A stretch of 64,000 nt of DNA from Pseudoxanthomonas sp. F37 (GTDB taxonomy: Bacteria; Pseudomonadota; Gammaproteobacteria; Xanthomonadales; Xanthomonadaceae). Within the stretch, counting starts at the first letter, position 1. Each line of letters opens with the position of its first letter. The DNA lies in NCBI RefSeq assembly GCF_022965755.1, contig NZ_CP095187.1, positions 372,001-436,000 on the forward strand. The letters run 5' to 3'. A program made the translations under genes and the position numbers. Shown here in pieces: positions 2,993 to 61,180 of this stretch. The notes under the pieces were generated by a model. The model saw only the letters and a list, made by a program, of their open reading frames with translations. It was not told the origin of the DNA and did not search any database.

Positions 2993-3883
2993 ATGGGGCA
3001 CTTGATCAGGTGTTGCAGTGCGTGGGTATCCGGCTTGGTGCTCCTGGTTTGCATGGGGTCGGGTCTGGCCCAGAGCCCGCAATCGATCCGCAAACAGGCC
3101 GAGGCCAGCATGCTGGTCACGGGCTCTGTCCTCATCGAGCGGGACGGCAGCGTCAGTGGGCTCGAGCTGGACCAGCGCGACAAGTTGCCGGAGGTCGTGG
3201 CGTCGCTGGTGGACAGGGCCGGGCCGACATGGAGGTTCGAGCCCGTGCTCGTGGACGGCGAGCCGCGGCGGGTCAAGGCGCGGATGAGTCTGCTGGTGGT
3301 CGCCAACAAGCTGGAGGAAGGCGGGTACCGCGTCGGTATCCGCAGCAGCTACTTCGGCAAGGATGCGATGACCGCGGAGGAGCGCGTCGCGCAACCCGAT
3401 GCCGTCAAGGTACTGGACATGCAGCCGCCGTCGTTTCCGCTCAGTGCAGCGGAGATCGGTGCGAGCGGTATCGCGTACGTGGTGCTCAAGATCGGAGCGG
3501 ACGGCAAGGTGATGGAGGCCGCGATCGAGCAGGTCAACCTGCGCACGGTCGGCGACGCCAACCAGATGAAGCGGATGAGGAGCGCATTCTCGCGCTCCGC
3601 GCTCAAAGCCGCCAAGCAGTGGTCGTTCTCGGTGCCTGCCGGTGCGACGGGCGAATACGGGTTCGTATCGTTGCGCGTTCCGGTCGATTACGAGATGGCA
3701 GGCAACAAGCCGCCGACATATGGCCAGTGGAGAGTCTACATTCCGGGTCCTAGAGAACCGATATCCTGGGTCCAGGACGACCAGACTTCGAGCGAAAGCC
3801 CGGAAGCCATGCTCGCGGGCGGGCTCTACCAGATGGGTAAGGGCCTGCGGTTGCTGACCCCGCTGGGCGGCGAAGGCTCGTAG
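2993..3883 (+). CDS. Secreted protein with TonB C-terminal-like domain
   Basis: A 296-residue protein. The ATG at 2993 is chosen because it follows AGAGGAG with good spacing and opens a clear signal peptide (hydrophobic run LVLLVCMG, likely cleavage after GLAQ). The same frame stays open far upstream, but only as the antisense of the antiporter. Residues ~120-220 resemble the TonB C-terminal fold (QPPSFPLSAAEIGASGIAYV, then VLKIGADGKV and a W-x-FSVP strand). An earlier stretch (GSVLIERDGSV ... WRFEPVLVDGEP) looks like a second, weaker copy. Unlike a true TonB there is no uncleaved N-terminal anchor and no proline-rich spacer. It is similar in design to the protein at 23774. Its role is unknown. 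Confidence 0.7.
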   Translation: MGHLIRCCSAWVSGLVLLVCMGSGLAQSPQSIRKQAEASMLVTGSVLIERDGSVSGLELDQRDKLPEVVASLVDRAGPTWRFEPVLVDGEPRRVKARMSLLVVANKLEEGGYRVGIRSSYFGKDAMTAEERVAQPDAVKVLDMQPPSFPLSAAEIGASGIAYVVLKIGADGKVMEAAIEQVNLRTVGDANQMKRMRSAFSRSALKAAKQWSFSVPAGATGEYGFVSLRVPVDYEMAGNKPPTYGQWRVYIPGPREPISWVQDDQTSSESPEAMLAGGLYQMGKGLRLLTPLGGEGS

Positions 3884-6971: not shown

Positions 6972-8675
6972 TCAGCGCTTCATCGAGCTGAAGAACTCGT
7001 CGTTGGACTTGGTGTTCTTCATCTTGTCCAGCAGGAACTCCATCGCCGCGATCTCGTCCATCGGGTGCAGCAGCTTGCGCAGGATCCAGATCTTCTGCAG
7101 CAGTTCCGGTTCGATCAGCAGGTCCTCGCGGCGCGTGCCGGAGCGGTTGATGTCGATGGCCGGGTAGACGCGCTTCTCGGTGATGCGGCGGTTCAGGTGC
7201 ACTTCGCTGTTGCCCGTGCCCTTGAACTCTTCGTAGATCACCTCGTCCATCTTGCTGCCGGTCTCGACCAGCGCGGTGGCGATGATGGTCAGCGAGCCGC
7301 CCTCTTCCACGTTGCGCGCGGCGCCGAAGAAGCGCTTCGGGCGGTGCAGGGCGTTGGCGTCCACGCCGCCGGTCAGCACCTTGCCGGAGCTGGGCACCAC
7401 GTTGTTGTAGGCGCGCGCCAGGCGGGTGATCGAGTCCAGCATGATCACCACGTCCTTCTTGTGCTCCACCAGGCGCTTGGCGCGCTCGATCACCATCTCG
7501 GCGACCTGCACGTGGCGCGCGGCCGGTTCATCGAACGTGGAACTGACCACTTCGCCGCGCACGGTGCGCTGCATCTCGGTGACTTCTTCCGGACGCTCGT
7601 CCACCAGCAGCACGATCAGGTGCACGTCGGGGTGGTTGGTGGTGATGGCGGTGGCGATCTGCTGCATCATGATCGTCTTGCCCGCCTTCGGCGGCGACAC
7701 GATCAGGGCGCGCTGGCCCTTGCCCTGCGGTGCCATCAGGTCGAGGATGCGGCCGGCGATGTCTTCCGACGAACCGTTGCCGCGCTCCAGGGTGAAGCGG
7801 CGGCGCGGGAACAGGGGGGTCAGGTTCTCGAACAGCACCTTGTTCTTCGACGCTTCCAGCGGCTCGCCGTTGATCGTGTCGATGGTTGACAGCGCGAAGT
7901 AGCGCTCGCCGTCCTTCGGCCAGCGGATGCGGCCGGCCAGGTGGTCGCCGGTGCGCAGGTTGAAGCGGCGGATCTGGCTGGGGCTGATGTACACGTCGTC
8001 CGGGCCGGCCAGGTAGCTGGCCTCGGCGGCGCGCAGGAAGCCGAAGCCGTCCGGCAGGATTTCCAGCACGCCGTCGGCGGCGACGCCTTCGCCGTGGCGG
8101 GTCAGCACCTTCAGCAGGGCGAAGATCACGTCCTGCTTGCGGGCGCGGGCGACGCCTTCCTGGATGTTCAGCTGCTCGGCGATGTCCAGCAGCTTGGGCG
8201 CGGGCATGCGCTTGAGGTCGCCCAGCGAGTACTGCGGGAACCCTTCCGGCACGTTCGGCATGGCGCGCGGCACGAACGCGTCCTGGCCGCCGCCATTGCC
8301 ATCCTGCGGCATGCCGTCGTTGCCCTGGCGGTCGCGGTTGCGCTCACGGCGGTTGCGGAAGCGGTCGCGGCGGTTGTTGCCGAAGCGGTTGCCGTCGCGG
8401 GATTCGCCGCGGTCGCCGCCCTCGTGCTGCGGGCCGCCCTGCGCCTGCGGGCCGGCGTTCTCGCCTGCGCCCTGCGAAGGGGCCGGGGCGGCGGGCGCCG
8501 GGGGCGCTTCGGGGGCCGCGGCGCGTTCGGCGACCGGCGGCAGCGGAAGCTGCGGCGCCGGATCGGCCGCGCGCTCGGCGGGAGCGGCGGTATCGGTGGC
8601 GGGGGTCTTGGGGGCGCGGGTCTTGCGCACGCGCTTCTCGGCGGGGGCGCCGGTTTCGTTGCTGCTGTCGGACAA
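6972..8675 (-). CDS. rho: Transcription termination factor Rho
   Basis: Hexameric RNA-dependent ATPase that ends transcription. Of 567 residues, the C-terminal ~420 are standard Rho: N-terminal helical domain ([20 protein letters not shown]), cold-shock RNA-binding domain ([31 protein letters not shown]), Walker A SPPKAGKT, the [10 protein letters not shown] segment, and the R-loop/Q-loop region ending FFSSMKR. The first ~150 residues are an extra low-complexity Ala/Pro then Asn/Arg/Gly-rich segment ([19 protein letters not shown]). Such inserts are known from Rho of several high-GC bacteria and add RNA affinity. trxA lies upstream on the same strand, as in E. coli, with a 208-bp leader. Confidence 0.98.
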
Positions 8676-8855
8676 GTTGCGAATCCTCGCTAGGTGGCGA
8701 GCGCCGGCGTTGCGGCGGCGGGTGAGTAAAAAGGAGACGGGGCTTCAGATGGGTGCGGCGCATCCCCTGCGCCGGAATTCGGGTTCGACACTATCACCGG
8801 GCCTGGGTGGCGGCAAGCCGGGCCGCCACGGCGGGTTCAAGCGGATTCAGCCAGC

Positions 8856-8876
8856 GCGCCCCGCCGCGCGGGGCGC
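8856..8876 (-). terminator. Hairpin downstream of trxA, in the rho leader
   Basis: A 9-bp GC stem (GCGCCCCGC / GCGGGGCGC) with a 3-nt loop lies 8 bp after the trxA stop on the minus strand. No T-run follows, so it may be a weak terminator or attenuator ahead of rho rather than a full stop. Confidence 0.4.
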
Positions 8877-8883
8877 CAGGGGC

Positions 8884-9225
8884 TCAGGCGGCCTGGGAGC
8901 CCAGGGCCTTGTCGATCATCTGGGTCAGCTGGCCCTTGCCGACGGCGCCGATCTGGGTGGCCTGGATCTGGCCGTCCTTGAACAGCAGCAGCATCGGGAT
9001 GGAGCGCACGTGGTACTTGATGGCGGTGGCGCGGTTCTCGTCCACGTTGACCTTGGCGACCTTCAGCTTGCCGCCGTAGGTCTCGGCCAGTTCGTCCAGG
9101 ACCGGCGAAATCATCTTGCAGGGGCCGCACCATTCGGCCCAGAAGTCCACCAGCACCGGCTCGCCGGACTGCAGCACGGCGGCGTCGAAATCGGCATCGC
9201 CGACGTGGGTCACTTTGTCGCTCAC
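8884..9225 (-). CDS. trxA: Thioredoxin 1
   Basis: Small cytoplasmic disulfide reductase of 113 residues. The start is a GTG at 9225, preceded by GGAGAT; this gives the normal thioredoxin length, whereas the longer open frame adds an unrelated leader. The active site is WCGPC within [11 protein letters not shown]. The cis-proline segment is [12 protein letters not shown], and the terminal helix is [13 protein letters not shown]. It is divergent from rhlB and upstream of rho, the same order as in enterobacteria. Confidence 0.97.
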
Positions 9226-11130: not shown

Positions 11131-11211
11131 TGTAGGAGCGCCCCATGGGCGCGATGCCTTTTGCCGGAAAGCATCCGGAGCAAAGCATCGCGCCCATGGG
11201 GCGCTCCTACA
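11131..11211. repeat. GTAGGAGCG palindromic repeat, copy 1
   Basis: Two perfectly complementary 27-nt arms (11131-11157 and 11185-11211) start with TGTAGGAGCGCCCCATGGGC and enclose a 27-nt loop. It is one of five related REP-like elements in the window, all intergenic and all at 3' ends of genes. A transcript would form a very stable stem, so it may also protect or end the rhlB mRNA. Confidence 0.85.
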
Positions 11212-51295: not shown

Positions 51296-51370
51296 GTAGG
51301 AGCGCCCCTTGGGCGCGATGCTCTTGGTGCAATCGCGAGAAATGCATCGCGCCCAAGTGGCGCTCCTACA
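51296..51370. repeat. GTAGGAGCG palindromic repeat, copy 3
   Basis: Arms GTAGGAGCGCCCCTTGGGCG and CGCCCAAGTGGCGCTCCTAC pair with one or two mismatches around a loop of ~30 nt. It fills the gap between the aldo/keto reductase and amidohydrolase genes. Confidence 0.8.
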
Positions 51371-57914: not shown

Positions 57915-57995
57915 TGTAGGAGCGCCCTCGGGCGCGATGCTCTTGCTTTCGCGGCAGGATCAAGAAAAAGCATCGCGCCCGAGGGCGCTCCTACA
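57915..57995. repeat. GTAGGAGCG palindromic repeat, copy 4
   Basis: Arms TGTAGGAGCGCCCTCGGGCG and CGCCCGAGGGCGCTCCTACA pair perfectly around a ~40-nt loop that itself holds GCATCG/CGATGC ends. It sits between the convergent ends of ybbP and rtcB and may terminate both. Confidence 0.82.
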
Positions 57996-58039: not shown

Positions 58040-59263
58040 TCACCCCTTGATGCACAGCACCTGGCGCAGCGTGTGGACCACGTCCACCAGGTCGCTTTGC
58101 GCGGCCATCACGGCGTCGATGTCCTTGTAGGCTGCCGGCGACTCGTCGAGCACCCCGGCGTCCTTTCGGCACTCGACGTGCGCCGTGGCCTGGCGGTGCT
58201 GCGACAGCGTGATCTGCTGGCGCGCGGCGGTACGGCTCAGCACGCGGCCGGCCCCGTGGCTGCAGCTGTGGAAGCTGTCCGCGTTGCCCTTCCCGCGCAC
58301 GATGAAGCTCTTCGCACCCATGCTGCCGGGGATGATCCCCAGCTCGCCGGCACGTGCGCTCACCGCACCCTTGCGGGTGACCAGCAGGTCCACGCCCGCG
58401 TGCGTTTCCTTCTGCACGTAGTTGTGGTGGCAGTTGACCGCCATCTTCTCCAGCTGGAACTTCGGCAGGCGGTGGCGCATCTCGGCCAGCACGCGCGACA
58501 TCATCGCCTCACGGTTCTCGCGGGCGTAATCCTGCGCCCACGACACCGCTTCCACGTAGTCGTCGAACAAGGGCTCGCCTTCCATGAAGAAGGCCAGGTC
58601 CTTGTCCGGCAGGTGGAAGCCGAGCACGCGGTGCGCCAACTGCTCGCGCGCGCGCTCGATGAAGTACGTGCCGATCAGGTTGCCGGTGCCGCGCGAACCG
58701 CTGTGCAGCATCACCCACACCGCATCGGCCTCGTCCAGGCAGATCTCGATGAAGTGGTTGCCGCCGCCCAGCGTGCCGATCTGACGGTCCAGCTTGTCGG
58801 TGCGGATCTTGCGGTGCTTGTGCTTGATCGCTTCCAGACGCGGCTCCAGCCCCGACTGCGCGATGCGCGTGGCGATGCTGTCCGGCAGCTTCCAGTGCTC
58901 GCCACCGCGGCCGTTGCCGACCGGCACGCTGCGCTCGATGCTCGAGCGCAACTGCGCCAGGTTGTCCGGCAGATCGTTCGCGTGCAGCGTGGTGCGTACC
59001 GCGGCCATGCCGCAGCCGATATCCACGCCGACGGCAGCCGGGATGATGGCGCCGCGGGTCGGGATGACCGAGCCCACGGTGGCGCCCTTGCCCAGGTGCA
59101 CGTCGGGCATCACCGCCACCCACGGGCCGACGAAGGGGATAGCCGCGATGTTCTGCAGCTGCGCGTGGGCGCCCTGGTCCAGGGGCACGCCGCGCACCCA
59201 GCCCTTGATCGGCGTGGCGCTGCCCTCGGCGTGCAGCAGTTCGAATCGGGTTTGCATGTTCAT
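58040..59263 (-). CDS. rtcB: RNA-splicing ligase RtcB
   Basis: A 407-residue GTP/Mn2+-dependent RNA ligase that joins 2',3'-cyclic phosphate or 3'-phosphate ends to 5'-OH ends. The length equals E. coli RtcB (408). Motifs: MPDVHLGKGATVG, GVDIGCGMAAVRT (metal Cys/Asp), GTLGGGNHFIEICL, HSGSRGTG and the guanylylation segment SCSHGAGRVLSR with the nucleophile His. The start at 59263 (MNMQTRFELL) is preferred. It follows a slipin gene and two tRNA-like sequences on the same strand. No RtcA or RtcR is in the window. Confidence 0.97.
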   Translation of the reverse strand: MNMQTRFELLHAEGSATPIKGWVRGVPLDQGAHAQLQNIAAIPFVGPWVAVMPDVHLGKGATVGSVIPTRGAIIPAAVGVDIGCGMAAVRTTLHANDLPDNLAQLRSSIERSVPVGNGRGGEHWKLPDSIATRIAQSGLEPRLEAIKHKHRKIRTDKLDRQIGTLGGGNHFIEICLDEADAVWVMLHSGSRGTGNLIGTYFIERAREQLAHRVLGFHLPDKDLAFFMEGEPLFDDYVEAVSWAQDYARENREAMMSRVLAEMRHRLPKFQLEKMAVNCHHNYVQKETHAGVDLLVTRKGAVSARAGELGIIPGSMGAKSFIVRGKGNADSFHSCSHGAGRVLSRTAARQQITLSQHRQATAHVECRKDAGVLDESPAAYKDIDAVMAAQSDLVDVVHTLRQVLCIKG

Positions 59264-59280
59264 GCGGTGTCCTTGTCGAT

Positions 59281-59360
59281 TGTAGGAGCGCCCCATGGGC
59301 GCGATGCTCTTGCCCTTGCTTCTTCCATGAAAAGCATCGCGCCCGTGGGGCGCTCCTGCA
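59281..59360. repeat. GTAGGAGCG palindromic repeat, copy 5
   Basis: Arms TGTAGGAGCGCCCCATGGGC and GCCCGTGGGGCGCTCCTGCA pair with two mismatches. Unlike the other copies it lies between two genes on the same strand (slipin then rtcB), so it may dampen rtcB expression relative to slipin. Confidence 0.8.
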
Positions 59361-59401
59361 GAAGGCCTGTCGCGGCGGGTCCGTCCACCGCGCGGGCCGT
59401 A

Positions 59402-60520
59402 CTACTTCAATGTCACCAGCTGCTTCAGCACGCCGTCCAGGCCGCCGAACACGGTGAGCTTGTCGATCTTCTCGGTGACCTTTTCCAGGGCTTCGAGCTC
59501 CTTCAGGCGCATCAGCACCGGCGACTCGTCGATCAGCTTCGCGGTGTTGAGCAGGGAACGCGTGGCGTTCGCCTCCTCGCGGCGGCGGATCACGTTGGCC
59601 TGCGCCGTCTTCTCCGCCTGCACCACCCCGTTGAGGATCTCCTTCATCTCGCCGGGCAGGATCACGTCCTTCACGCCCACCCCCAGCACCTCCACGCCGA
59701 GACCGGTGACCTGGCCGCGCACGTAGGCGAAGATGTCGGCGTCCAGCGAGGCCTTGTCGCCCAGCAGCTCGTCCAGCGTTTTGGCGGAGACCGCCTTGCG
59801 CAGGCCGTACTGCAGTTCGCGGTAGACGAAGTCGCCGACCTTCGCGACCTTGGTGCGCGCGGCCACCACGTCGGTGACGCGGGTGCTGGCGGCCAGGTTC
59901 ACGCGCAGGCTGACCTTGTCGCGGGTCAGCAGTTCCTGGCCCGAGACTTCGACGGACTGCACGCGCAGGTCCACCACATCCACCACGACGTTCTTCTGGA
60001 AGTTCCAGAAGGCGTAGCTGCCGGGCGCGAGCGTGCGCTCGAGCTTGCCGTCGATGAACACCAGGCCGGCGAACTCCGCCGGCACATCGGCCACCACGGC
60101 CAGCTTCGACAATGCCCCCAGCTGGCGCAGGCGCCGCGCGACGGCGACGTCCACGTCCGCCGTGGCCAGCGACACCGGTTGCACCTCGACCTTCACCAGG
60201 CCGATCCAGTACAGGCGCCGCGTGCCGGGCGGCAGCACGTCTTCCAGCTTGCCGTTCTTCAGCACCAGGCCGACCTGGTCCACGCCGATGTCGGCGAGCA
60301 GGAAGACCTCGCCCAGGCCGTCGCCCAGGCGCGCGATCAGCGCGTCGACGTCGTGGCCGGCGTACTCCGGCGATGCGATGTTGAAGGTGCGCACCTCGGT
60401 CCGACCCATCGGGTCGAACCAGCGGTACACGCCGGGCGCGAGCAGTTGCTCGAACCGACGGTTGCGATACACCAGGCCGCGCTCGCCGTCACCGATCACG
60501 ACCCTCTTGGTCCAGAACAT
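59402..60520 (-). CDS. Slipin-family (SPFH/band 7) protein
   Basis: A 372-residue SPFH protein; AAGGAG lies 9 bp before the ATG. The N-terminal ~180 residues carry two beta-rich repeats of the form GLVYRNRRFEQLLAPGVYRW and GLVFIDGKLERTLAPGSYAFW. The SPFH core follows (VVVDVVDLRVQSVEVSGQEL, VSLRVNLAASTRVTD, ELLGDKASLDADIFAYV), then a helical, coiled-coil tail (EMKEILNGVVQAEKTAQANV). Unlike most slipins I see no clear N-terminal membrane helix. It is 138 bp upstream of rtcB and downstream of the tRNA-like elements. Its role may be to scaffold RNA repair, but this is speculation from position. Confidence 0.88.
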   Translation of the reverse strand: MFWTKRVVIGDGERGLVYRNRRFEQLLAPGVYRWFDPMGRTEVRTFNIASPEYAGHDVDALIARLGDGLGEVFLLADIGVDQVGLVLKNGKLEDVLPPGTRRLYWIGLVKVEVQPVSLATADVDVAVARRLRQLGALSKLAVVADVPAEFAGLVFIDGKLERTLAPGSYAFWNFQKNVVVDVVDLRVQSVEVSGQELLTRDKVSLRVNLAASTRVTDVVAARTKVAKVGDFVYRELQYGLRKAVSAKTLDELLGDKASLDADIFAYVRGQVTGLGVEVLGVGVKDVILPGEMKEILNGVVQAEKTAQANVIRRREEANATRSLLNTAKLIDESPVLMRLKELEALEKVTEKIDKLTVFGGLDGVLKQLVTLK

Positions 60521-60889
60521 GGCGTTGTTCTCCTTGTTGGCTCTGGTGGTTCGATCCAGTTGGCAAACACCGTCGCGGAGGACCGATTCCCGCGACGATG
60601 ATGTGCCGTCCGCGACATGCGGACAGCGGAAGAAGTTGGAAACGCCCCTGGACGGAGGCGATGCGGACAACCGGCGCTGCCGGCGGAGGCGTCGTCGCGG
60701 GCGGTGATCCGGAGATCGCAGCGATCGCGGCGTGCATCCGCGTCGAGGACGCGGAGCCGGCACCGTCCCCGCTGCGGCGCACTGTCTTTCCGCAGTCCAT
60801 CGCGGAGAGACGTTGCGCCACACGGGGCGTTTCCGGGGTGGGACTTGCGTCCCGGTGTCATGACGTGAAAGGTCATGTGCCCTTGCAGG
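60521..60889 (-). other. 369-bp leader between tRNA-like elements and slipin gene
   Basis: No coding sequence is convincing here. On the minus strand it starts with a hairpin (CATGAC-N7-GTCATG at 60859-60877) and a GGGAC-GCAA-GTCCC tetraloop hairpin (60840-60853), and ends at the slipin ribosome-binding site. I looked for a sigma-54 promoter (GG-N10-GC with TGGCAC/TTGC) as expected for RtcR control and did not find a good one. Confidence 0.5.
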
Positions 60890-60960
60890 CGTTGGAGCGG
60901 GAGTCGAACCCGCGACAGTCGGATTAACCGTCCGATGCTCTAACCATCTGAGCTATCCAG
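60890..60960 (-). ncRNA. tRNA-like element 2 (Asn-like anticodon arm, degenerate)
   Basis: On the minus strand a D arm (AGCTCAGATGGTTAGAGC), a perfect 5-bp anticodon stem (TCGGA/TCCGA) with loop CGGTTAA, and a perfect T arm (GCGGG-TTCGACT-CCCGC) follow tRNA spacing. Departures from a working tRNA: loop position 33 is G instead of the invariant U, the acceptor stem pairs at only five of seven positions (CACTGGA with TCCAACG), and no CCA is encoded. It abuts element 1 directly. It could be a decayed tRNA-Asn or a tRNA-mimic ncRNA. Confidence 0.7.
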
Positions 60961-61032
60961 TGGTGGACGAACCGGATTTGAACCGGTGGCCAACGGCATG
61001 CGCCGCTGCTCTCCCAAGCTGAGCTATCGTCC
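60961..61032 (-). ncRNA. tRNA-like element 1 (encoded CCA, abnormal anticodon arm)
   Basis: On the minus strand a 6-bp acceptor stem (GGACGA/TCGTCC) ends in ACCA; the D arm (AGCTCAGCTTGGGAGAGC) and T arm (ACCGG-TTCAAAT-CCGGT) are perfect. The anticodon arm (GCGGC-GCATGCC-GTTGG) cannot form a normal stem and has C at position 33. No isoacceptor can be assigned. It lies head-to-tail with element 2, upstream of slipin and rtcB, where Salmonella encodes tRNA-mimicking Y RNAs. Confidence 0.7.
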
Positions 61033-61140
61033 GCTCGAGGAACACCGCCTCGCACGCTTCGGCATGCGCCACGGCAGCGCCGCGCGCACCGGACGGGACG
61101 CAAGCCCGTACCGCAGTAGCGTGTTCGATCGATGCTCCCC

Positions 61141-61180
61141 ATTGCCGGCGGTCGCCCACCGGCAATCCGTTCGGGCGACC
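61141..61180. promoter_or_regulatory. Interleaved inverted repeats upstream of the tRNA-like elements
   Basis: ATTGCCGG-N10-CCGGCAAT (61141-61166) is interlaced with GGTCGCCC (61150-61157) / GGGCGACC (61173-61180). The two dyads cannot form together, so they are either a regulator-binding site or alternative RNA hairpins 5' of the ncRNA. The rest of 61033-61379 shows no gene, only further GC hairpins (e.g. CGCCCC/GGGGCG at 61261-61278). Confidence 0.45.

Follow-up and report, generated by a model that had tools for sequence, protein, structure and literature searches.

A 64,000-nucleotide stretch of the Pseudoxanthomonas sp. F37 genome (contig NZ_CP095187.1, positions 372,001 to 436,000; the window, whose coordinates are used below) carries on its minus strand a gene for a slipin, a protein of the SPFH group, followed on its 3' side by a gene for the RNA ligase RtcB. 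Upstream of the slipin gene lies a conserved structured RNA of about 530 nt, spanning about 61166-60638 on the same strand and containing two tandem tRNA-like modules, which we regard, with a probability of roughly 0.8, as the functional RNA of an RNA-repair module. The slipin gene (60520-59402, 372 aa) has Band_7 (PF01145, E 1.3e-29) as its sole Pfam match, and the rtcB gene (59263-58040, 407 aa) gives the single PF01139 match (E 4.7e-125) that the Pfam search returned for this genome. A first-pass annotation of the window had described two abutting minus-strand tRNA-likes upstream of slipin and rtcB, an arrangement that ARAGORN, Rfam and Pfam all bear out. The pair is real, but it proved too narrow a unit, being part of a much larger RNA, and the span proposed for the RNA (60830-61110) was too small because the conserved structure extends over about 61166-60638. 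Read 5' to 3', this RNA consists of a junction domain, tRNA-like 1 (TL1), tRNA-like 2 (TL2), a hairpin resembling an anticodon arm, a GNRA hairpin and a 3' domain.

TL1 (61032-60961, minus strand) has a 6-bp acceptor, a D arm, an anticodon arm with the 4-nt loop GCAU, a T arm and an encoded CCA. TL2 (60960-60892, minus strand) has a D arm, a T arm, an acceptor shortened to 4 bp plus a C-A mismatch, and an anticodon arm in which a 5-bp stem carries the 7-nt loop CGGUUAA, with G at position 33; it lacks CCA. ARAGORN calls both on the minus strand (60962-60888 and 61033-60962), and with 48.2 and 45.0 bits the two exceed the gathering score (29) of the Rfam tRNA model; in a search of the window with Rfam 15, tRNA was the only family to reach its gathering score. 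These scores are what favors reading the two as ordinary or decaying tRNA genes. Among the 49 tRNA-model matches in the genome, a single partial match scores below TL1 and TL2. Thirty-six of the 47 others were examined (the 11 left out being mostly longer ones, plus the partial one); U33 and CCA occur in all 36, and the acceptor is paired at 7/7 positions in 34 and at 6/7 in two. Neither TL1 nor TL2 combines, as a functional tRNA would, a 7-bp acceptor ending in CCA with a 7-nt loop bearing U33 and a conserved anticodon.

Slipin genes were sought in 61 genomes (this one included), 274 genomes of the class and 119 of the family, and 80 named loci were taken from among the matches listed; the 151 loci examined in all include some genomes twice. 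The nearest relatives by slipin among the named matches listed are Pseudoxanthomonas, at 96% identity. In the interval from -1000 to -100 upstream of slipin, T-arm motifs number 307 in sense and 12 in antisense orientation over the 151 loci, a strand bias that places the tandem arrangement beyond chance. A tandem T-arm pair was found at 133 of the 151 loci (68 of the 80 named ones) and exists in two builds, TL2 being full in 116 of them and short (spacing below 66 nt) in the other 17, the latter found, for example, in the Competibacter group; the 133 include L035, one of the 17, whose pair is doubtful. Only five loci show no T arm at all: in four the upstream sequence is no longer than 160 nt, and the fifth, L039, carries a PhyH insertion. 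One locus (L043, 1087-1298) has three tandem tRNA-likes upstream of slipin rather than two.

Across relatives, the stems of these modules are maintained while their anticodons change. In an alignment of TL2 from 88 of 90 selected loci (L052 and L086, which have another D arm, and 16 other short-spacing loci were left out), 95.3% of cells in the cloverleaf are paired, as against 79.8% in shuffles, and double changes occur in 15 of the 19 pairs. Pairing reaches 98.4% in the anticodon stem, and there is hardly any variation in the D stem or across most of the T loop, whereas the anticodon loop, usually of 7 nt, is the segment of highest mean entropy; the acceptor is short, at four to five pairs. 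TL1 arms were parsed with a simple script favoring long stems: CCA is present at 63 of 106 loci, of the 84 anticodon arms parsed, 33 end in a 4-nt loop, many of these loops being GNRA-like, and a contiguous acceptor of 5-7 bp was found in 55 of 96, the remaining 41 failing the simple test of contiguity. The description of the tRNA-likes as degenerate is thus misleading, because compensatory changes keep their stems. Judged from the sequences, TL1 and TL2 are not decaying tRNAs; they offer tRNA elbows without a usable anticodon. With shortened acceptors, a 4-nt loop in TL1, no U33 in the TL2 of this genome, and anticodons that change between near relatives over compensated stems, the ordinary-tRNA and tRNA-pseudogene readings were rejected, and we consider their probability practically negligible.

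The tRNA-likes are embedded in further conserved structure. At the head of the RNA stands a conserved hairpin, AUUGCCGG...CCGGCAAU (61166-61141), both stem sides of which change in a same-genus alignment read by eye. The 5' junction domain (61123-61053) comprises the closing helix P1 (61123-61118 with 61058-61053), a conserved NGCGG motif, hairpin P2, and hairpin P3, which reads GGUGCGC...GCGCAUGCC here and has the consensus GGUGCGC...GYGUAYGCC across loci. It was aligned from 82 of the 89 loci returned by a motif search of 114. P2 is paired in 95.6% of cells with double changes in 5/5 pairs; the corresponding 98.8% for P3 is biased because the motif search demanded at least 6/7 P3 pairs, while P2 and P1 were unselected. 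P1 scores 14.7, as against 9.97 (standard deviation 0.27) when partners are shuffled between loci. A covariance model of this domain, R1, built from 61 of 81 trimmed sequences, matches the window at 61060-61115.

Downstream of TL2, a free-standing hairpin (60877-60859), CAUGAC-CUUUCAC-GUCAUG, resembles an anticodon arm, and its loop is that of the genome's own tRNA-Glu(UUC). Hairpins with a CUNNNAN loop occur at this place in 55 of 114 loci, against a mean of 0.32 and a maximum of 2 in shuffled sequences; the commonest loops are CUGUCAC (19 loci), which is the loop of the genome's own tRNA-Asp(GUC), and CUUUCAC (16 loci). Next come a GNRA hairpin, GGGAC-GCAA-GUCCC (60853-60840), and a 3' domain (60834-60638) closed by an 11-bp long-range helix of GGAAACGCCCC (60834-60824) with GGGGCGUUUCC (60648-60638), the halves of which lie 175 nt apart in the window. 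Both were assessed with RNAalifold in 46 sequences, namely those with a 3' stretch of 200-420 nt among the 55 loci of at least 72% slipin identity. The GNRA hairpin keeps 4/4 predicted pairs in 46/46 sequences, and the long-range helix shows compensatory changes; the 3' domain is thus supported, at the level of sequence covariation, for the nearer relatives. Minus-strand positions 61180-60621 fold with a z-score of -4.5.

The variable anticodon loops could be read as baits that diversify in an arms race with anticodon nucleases. The 77 TL2 loops of 7 nt hold 31 different triplets, with U33 in 52, and a comparison of 14 close relatives gives 0.55 differences per site for positions 33-36, as against 0.126 at fourfold sites of slipin; the Asp- and Glu-type loops of the anticodon-arm mimic would suit such a reading as well. 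The remaining free positions of the leader, however, differ at 0.5-0.7 per site, the same range, so that the anticodon loop looks unconstrained in sequence rather than driven, and TL1 loops are often 4 nt long and GNRA-like. Diversification is strong against fourfold sites but fails against the other free leader positions, and the arms-race reading was rejected as improbable. Canonical anticodon loops are in any event not conserved, given the 31 triplets and the 4-nt loops of TL1. Neither of the findings that the first-pass annotation had said would count against it, namely ordinary tRNAs at this site in relatives or a lack of conservation with slipin-rtcB, appeared.

By sequence, the RNA tracks slipin more closely than it tracks rtcB. 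Slipin was found at E <= 1e-40 in 33 of 119 family genomes, and strong R1 matches (E < 1e-7) occur in 30 of those 33 (the exceptions being G334, G420 and G440) and in none of the 86 without slipin; four slipin-less genomes (G355, G374, G411 and G421) give weak matches of 26-31 bits. In the class sample, slipin at the same threshold is present in 15 of 274 genomes and R1 (E <= 0.01) in 13. The eight best R1 matches are all on the slipin strand and 5' of slipin, with 1.5 kb between the two in G153; of the five weaker ones (27-33 bits), one (G093) stands at a contig edge adjoining an rtcB, and in the remaining four the fetched stretch contains no slipin and no rtcB. Of the 11 R1 matches (E <= 0.001) in the phylum sample, ten adjoin slipin; one of the ten comes from a genome in another class, which has both tRNA-likes and a slipin of 38% identity. 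The pairing of tRNA-likes with slipin, which the earlier proposal had required, thus extends over several proteobacterial families and one genome of another class of the phylum. In L039, an oppositely oriented PhyH gene separates the RNA from slipin, and the RNA is kept. Relative to slipin, rtcB lies downstream on the same strand in 50 of the 80 named loci and upstream in six. Searches bearing on a mobile or phage origin gave no match among phage records at E 1e-20, one viral contig, and nine plasmid records of 0.33-4.8 Mb; such an origin of the slipin/RNA unit was rejected. PADLOC matched neither slipin nor RtcB.

Some relatives place the RNA-slipin unit beside known components of RNA repair. 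Eight upstream open reading frames (ORFs) were scanned for RtcR, which proved to lie divergently upstream in five: L136 (P. aeruginosa PA7), L146 (Accumulibacter), L149 (Pseudomonas), L150 (Burkholderiales) and L204 (Photobacterium). The upstream ORFs of L132, L138 and L148 are not RtcR. Near-perfect -24/-12 sites stand 5' of the RNA in L148, L150, L146, L136, L149 and L138; in these six loci, all from Burkholderiales, Pseudomonas or Accumulibacter, the sites start with TGGCAC, are placed 168-215 nt 5' of the T arm and score at least 13.5 out of 15.5, and L061 and L100 have sigma54-like scores of 13.5 without a TGGCAC start. A general sigma54 promoter for the RNA was rejected, there being no excess over control stretches. 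The E. coli slipin adjoins RlaP, an RNA-repair protein of the polymerase-beta family; of 5426 genomes, 1621 match the slipin-bearing stretch over at least 80% of the query. At that locus (L202), an ORF at 8338-8886 with a Pfam zeta-toxin-like kinase domain lies between RlaP and lysC, and a T arm, a P3-like stem and a sigma54-like site could be read by eye, which is weak evidence. When tRNA genes were counted on the slipin strand alone, at least two further ones, and up to 14, accompany seven of the 80 named loci; L035, L104, L130, L132, L134, L135, L141 and L159 have further same-strand tRNA genes beside the RNA-slipin unit, and such genes are possibly tRNA replacement stocks.

Several results weigh against a trans-acting RNA of a repair module. 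No match to RtcA (PF01137) or RtcR (PF06956) was found in this genome, and RtcR has a match in 8 of the 61 genomes searched; likewise, this genome gave no Ro60/TROVE match (PF05731), and the 61 genomes together gave one weak match. In 24 of the 80 named loci rtcB is absent from the fetched stretch, 18 of them having more than 1 kb of 3' flank. The first-pass proposal of slipin-rtcB as the unit therefore holds for slipin, with which the tRNA-likes are kept, and less well for rtcB. R1, run with stricter filters in the searches over more than 40 genomes, found nothing at slipin in 7 of the 15 slipin-bearing class genomes, one of which (L042) was recovered with default filters, and neither R1 nor a further model, R2, matches the E. 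coli locus. The anticodon-arm mimic is absent from about half of the loci (59/114), the anticodon positions are no more variable than other free positions of the leader, and sigma54-like sites over all loci (60/145) are as frequent as in control stretches (60/151). Finally, the RNA lies on the slipin strand and directly upstream of slipin in nearly all loci, a position that fits a cis role as well.

Against this background, the RNA-slipin unit probably helps the cell to cope with damaged tRNAs. As to how, we tentatively favor, at somewhat less than even odds, a scaffold or decoy in trans: the RNA would act mainly as the RNA of a slipin ribonucleoprotein (RNP); its elbows and anticodon-arm mimics would draw tRNA-handling enzymes and anticodon nucleases off real tRNAs; and RtcB would reseal cut tRNAs, perhaps the cut mimic too. 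Action in trans is favored because the opposite PhyH gene separates RNA from slipin in one genome. Because the leader position is near-constant, the RNA may instead be a cis-acting leader, that is, the 5' untranslated region of slipin-rtcB, in which cleavage of the tRNA-like loops or competition for tRNA-binding factors would cause refolding and switch expression on under attack by tRNA nucleases. Consistent with such a switch, no terminator-like site was found in the window between the RNA and slipin, and a hairpin, CCGAUCC/GGAUCGG, with some compensatory changes in the 46 sequences, lies just 5' of the slipin ribosome-binding site; damaged tRNAs regulate the RtcR operon of Salmonella, according to PMC7790460. 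Yet the opposite gene in L039 would interrupt such a leader, a switch of 530 nt that includes two tRNA modules and a 3' domain would in our judgement be large, and induction is already explained where RtcR is present. We thus consider the cis-acting leader rather unlikely.

The trans-acting RNP invites comparison with the rsr-yrlBA-rtcBA locus of Salmonella, which, according to PMC7790460 and PMC8394870, likewise combines an RNA ligase with a noncoding RNA mimicking part of a tRNA; RtcR, found in five relatives here, is a further likeness. The two differ in that slipin stands in place of Ro60, no RtcA or RtcR was found in this genome, and the RNA is several times larger than YrlA (90-150 nt in PMC8394870) and has two tRNA modules. 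By analogy, slipin and the large tRNA-mimic RNA may occupy the place that Ro60/Rsr and Y RNA hold in the Salmonella module, a proposal to which we give little short of an even chance. The first-pass suggestion of an operon without Ro60 agrees with the lack of a TROVE match in this genome. Its view of the locus as a variant of the Rsr operon with an SPFH protein gains from RtcR beside the RNA-slipin unit in those five relatives and loses from the closer linkage of the RNA to slipin than to rtcB; the role as a Y-like RNA, RtcB substrate or sensor that it offered for the tRNA-like pair is hypothetical.

A YrlA-family Y RNA that has lost its Ro60 partner is a different matter. Weak Rfam matches to YrlA do exist (26.4 bits for the window, 34.0 for L043), but the gathering score is 69 and the matches overlie the tRNA-like segments. 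Moreover, no TROVE protein was matched in this genome, and nothing in the description of YrlA corresponds to the 5' and 3' domains, as far as the available part of PMC8394870 goes. Identity with YrlA was rejected, and we hold this origin to be very improbable. LOOT RNA, another candidate, was not among the Rfam matches, its presence in the library being unchecked.

Other systems share parts of this arrangement. In Anabaena, TrcR represses the tRNA array trn, rtcB and a slipin (PMC10272220); a tRNA array, rtcB and slipin are thus co-regulated there, but the genes are scattered. The SPFH gene PaFlo8 of P. aeruginosa lies inside an rtcA-rtcB-rtcR locus, according to PMC13086221, in the main text of which the word tRNA does not occur. 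Like the present locus, that rtc locus has an SPFH gene, and L136 of strain PA7 carries matches to both R1 (38.6 bits) and R2 (78.7 bits), although the T-arm scan found one T arm alone.

A 2016 abstract by Burroughs and Aravind (NAR 44:8525) reportedly predicts, in outline, RNA-repair systems in which SPFH/Band-7 modules are paired with a novel tRNA-like molecule. An SPFH protein, a tRNA-like RNA and an RNA ligase, the trio met here, would accordingly have been brought together before; that account may or may not already contain the larger RNA with its tandem arrangement, its 5' and 3' domains and its anticodon-arm mimic. In the literature searched, and within the text accessible, no paper naming both 'tRNA-like' and 'slipin' was found, nor one describing this RNA. 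The additions made here are the RNA architecture, the variability of its loops and the vault-like slipin model.

That model concerns the protein partner. An AlphaFold single-chain model of slipin (mean predicted local distance difference test score 84.7, predicted template modeling score 0.60) has an N-terminal row of three beta modules in tandem, the last of which opens the SPFH part, and a long helix at the C-terminal side. Compared with one another, these modules match at a probability of at least 97%, and the gene holds a 49-nt repeat at spacings of 204 and 207 nt. In a Foldseek search of the PDB, stomatin and HflK/C were best, and the major vault protein (MVP) ranked 13th (E 6.6e-11); by sequence, MVP was matched neither among PDB sequences (E <= 1) nor in Pfam (E <= 5). 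Like MVP, the modeled slipin places beta modules in tandem ahead of an SPFH-like part and a long helix, whereas MVP has more than three modules and no sequence match, and stomatin and HflK/C are closer. The eukaryotic vault joins an SPFH-like protein, vault RNA and the TROVE protein TEP1. On the strength of this model, slipin and the tRNA-mimic RNA could conceivably form a vault-like RNP, a ring or cage holding RNA and RtcB as a repair chamber for cut tRNAs, which we rate as quite unlikely. If it were so, Ro60 with Y RNA and a vault-like SPFH protein with tRNA-mimic RNA would be interchangeable cores of bacterial RNA-repair operons, and both the SPFH-like and the TROVE parts of the eukaryotic vault would be foreshadowed in bacteria.

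Whatever the mechanism, a repair system for which the literature consulted, in the text available, describes proteins alone gains a defined RNA with boundaries, a secondary structure and covariance models. The RNA occurs in tractable species, including Pseudomonas aeruginosa, where RtcR and a sigma54-like site adjoin it; thus, the role of noncoding RNAs in RNA-repair operons, and the reason why SPFH proteins occur there, become testable. A tRNA mimic without a fixed anticodon, accompanied by a copy of a tRNA-Asp or tRNA-Glu loop, further predicts specific nuclease targets.

The window holds a few features of lesser bearing. Inverted repeats resembling repetitive extragenic palindromes (REPs), of the form GGAGCGCC...GGGCGCGATGC, occur at 57915-57995, 59281-59360, 11135-11207 and 51299-51366; half-sites number six in the 64-kb window, as against 0.05 expected. 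The copy at 59281-59360, to which no strand is assigned, lies in the slipin-rtcB spacer and is not part of the slipin/RNA/RtcB system; the length of this spacer varies in relatives, perhaps because a REP-like copy fills it. On the plus strand, ARAGORN calls a 94-nt tRNA-Thr(CGU) at 3161-3254 without support from the Rfam tRNA model at gathering score, and the call is probably false. Just upstream of the structured RNA, the minus strand at 61586-61379 holds a 40-codon ORF read by eye (MKPAYSFDSK...) and, after it, a strong terminator-like site with a 14-bp stem (61412-61379), a unit that looks like a short leader or a small RNA unit.

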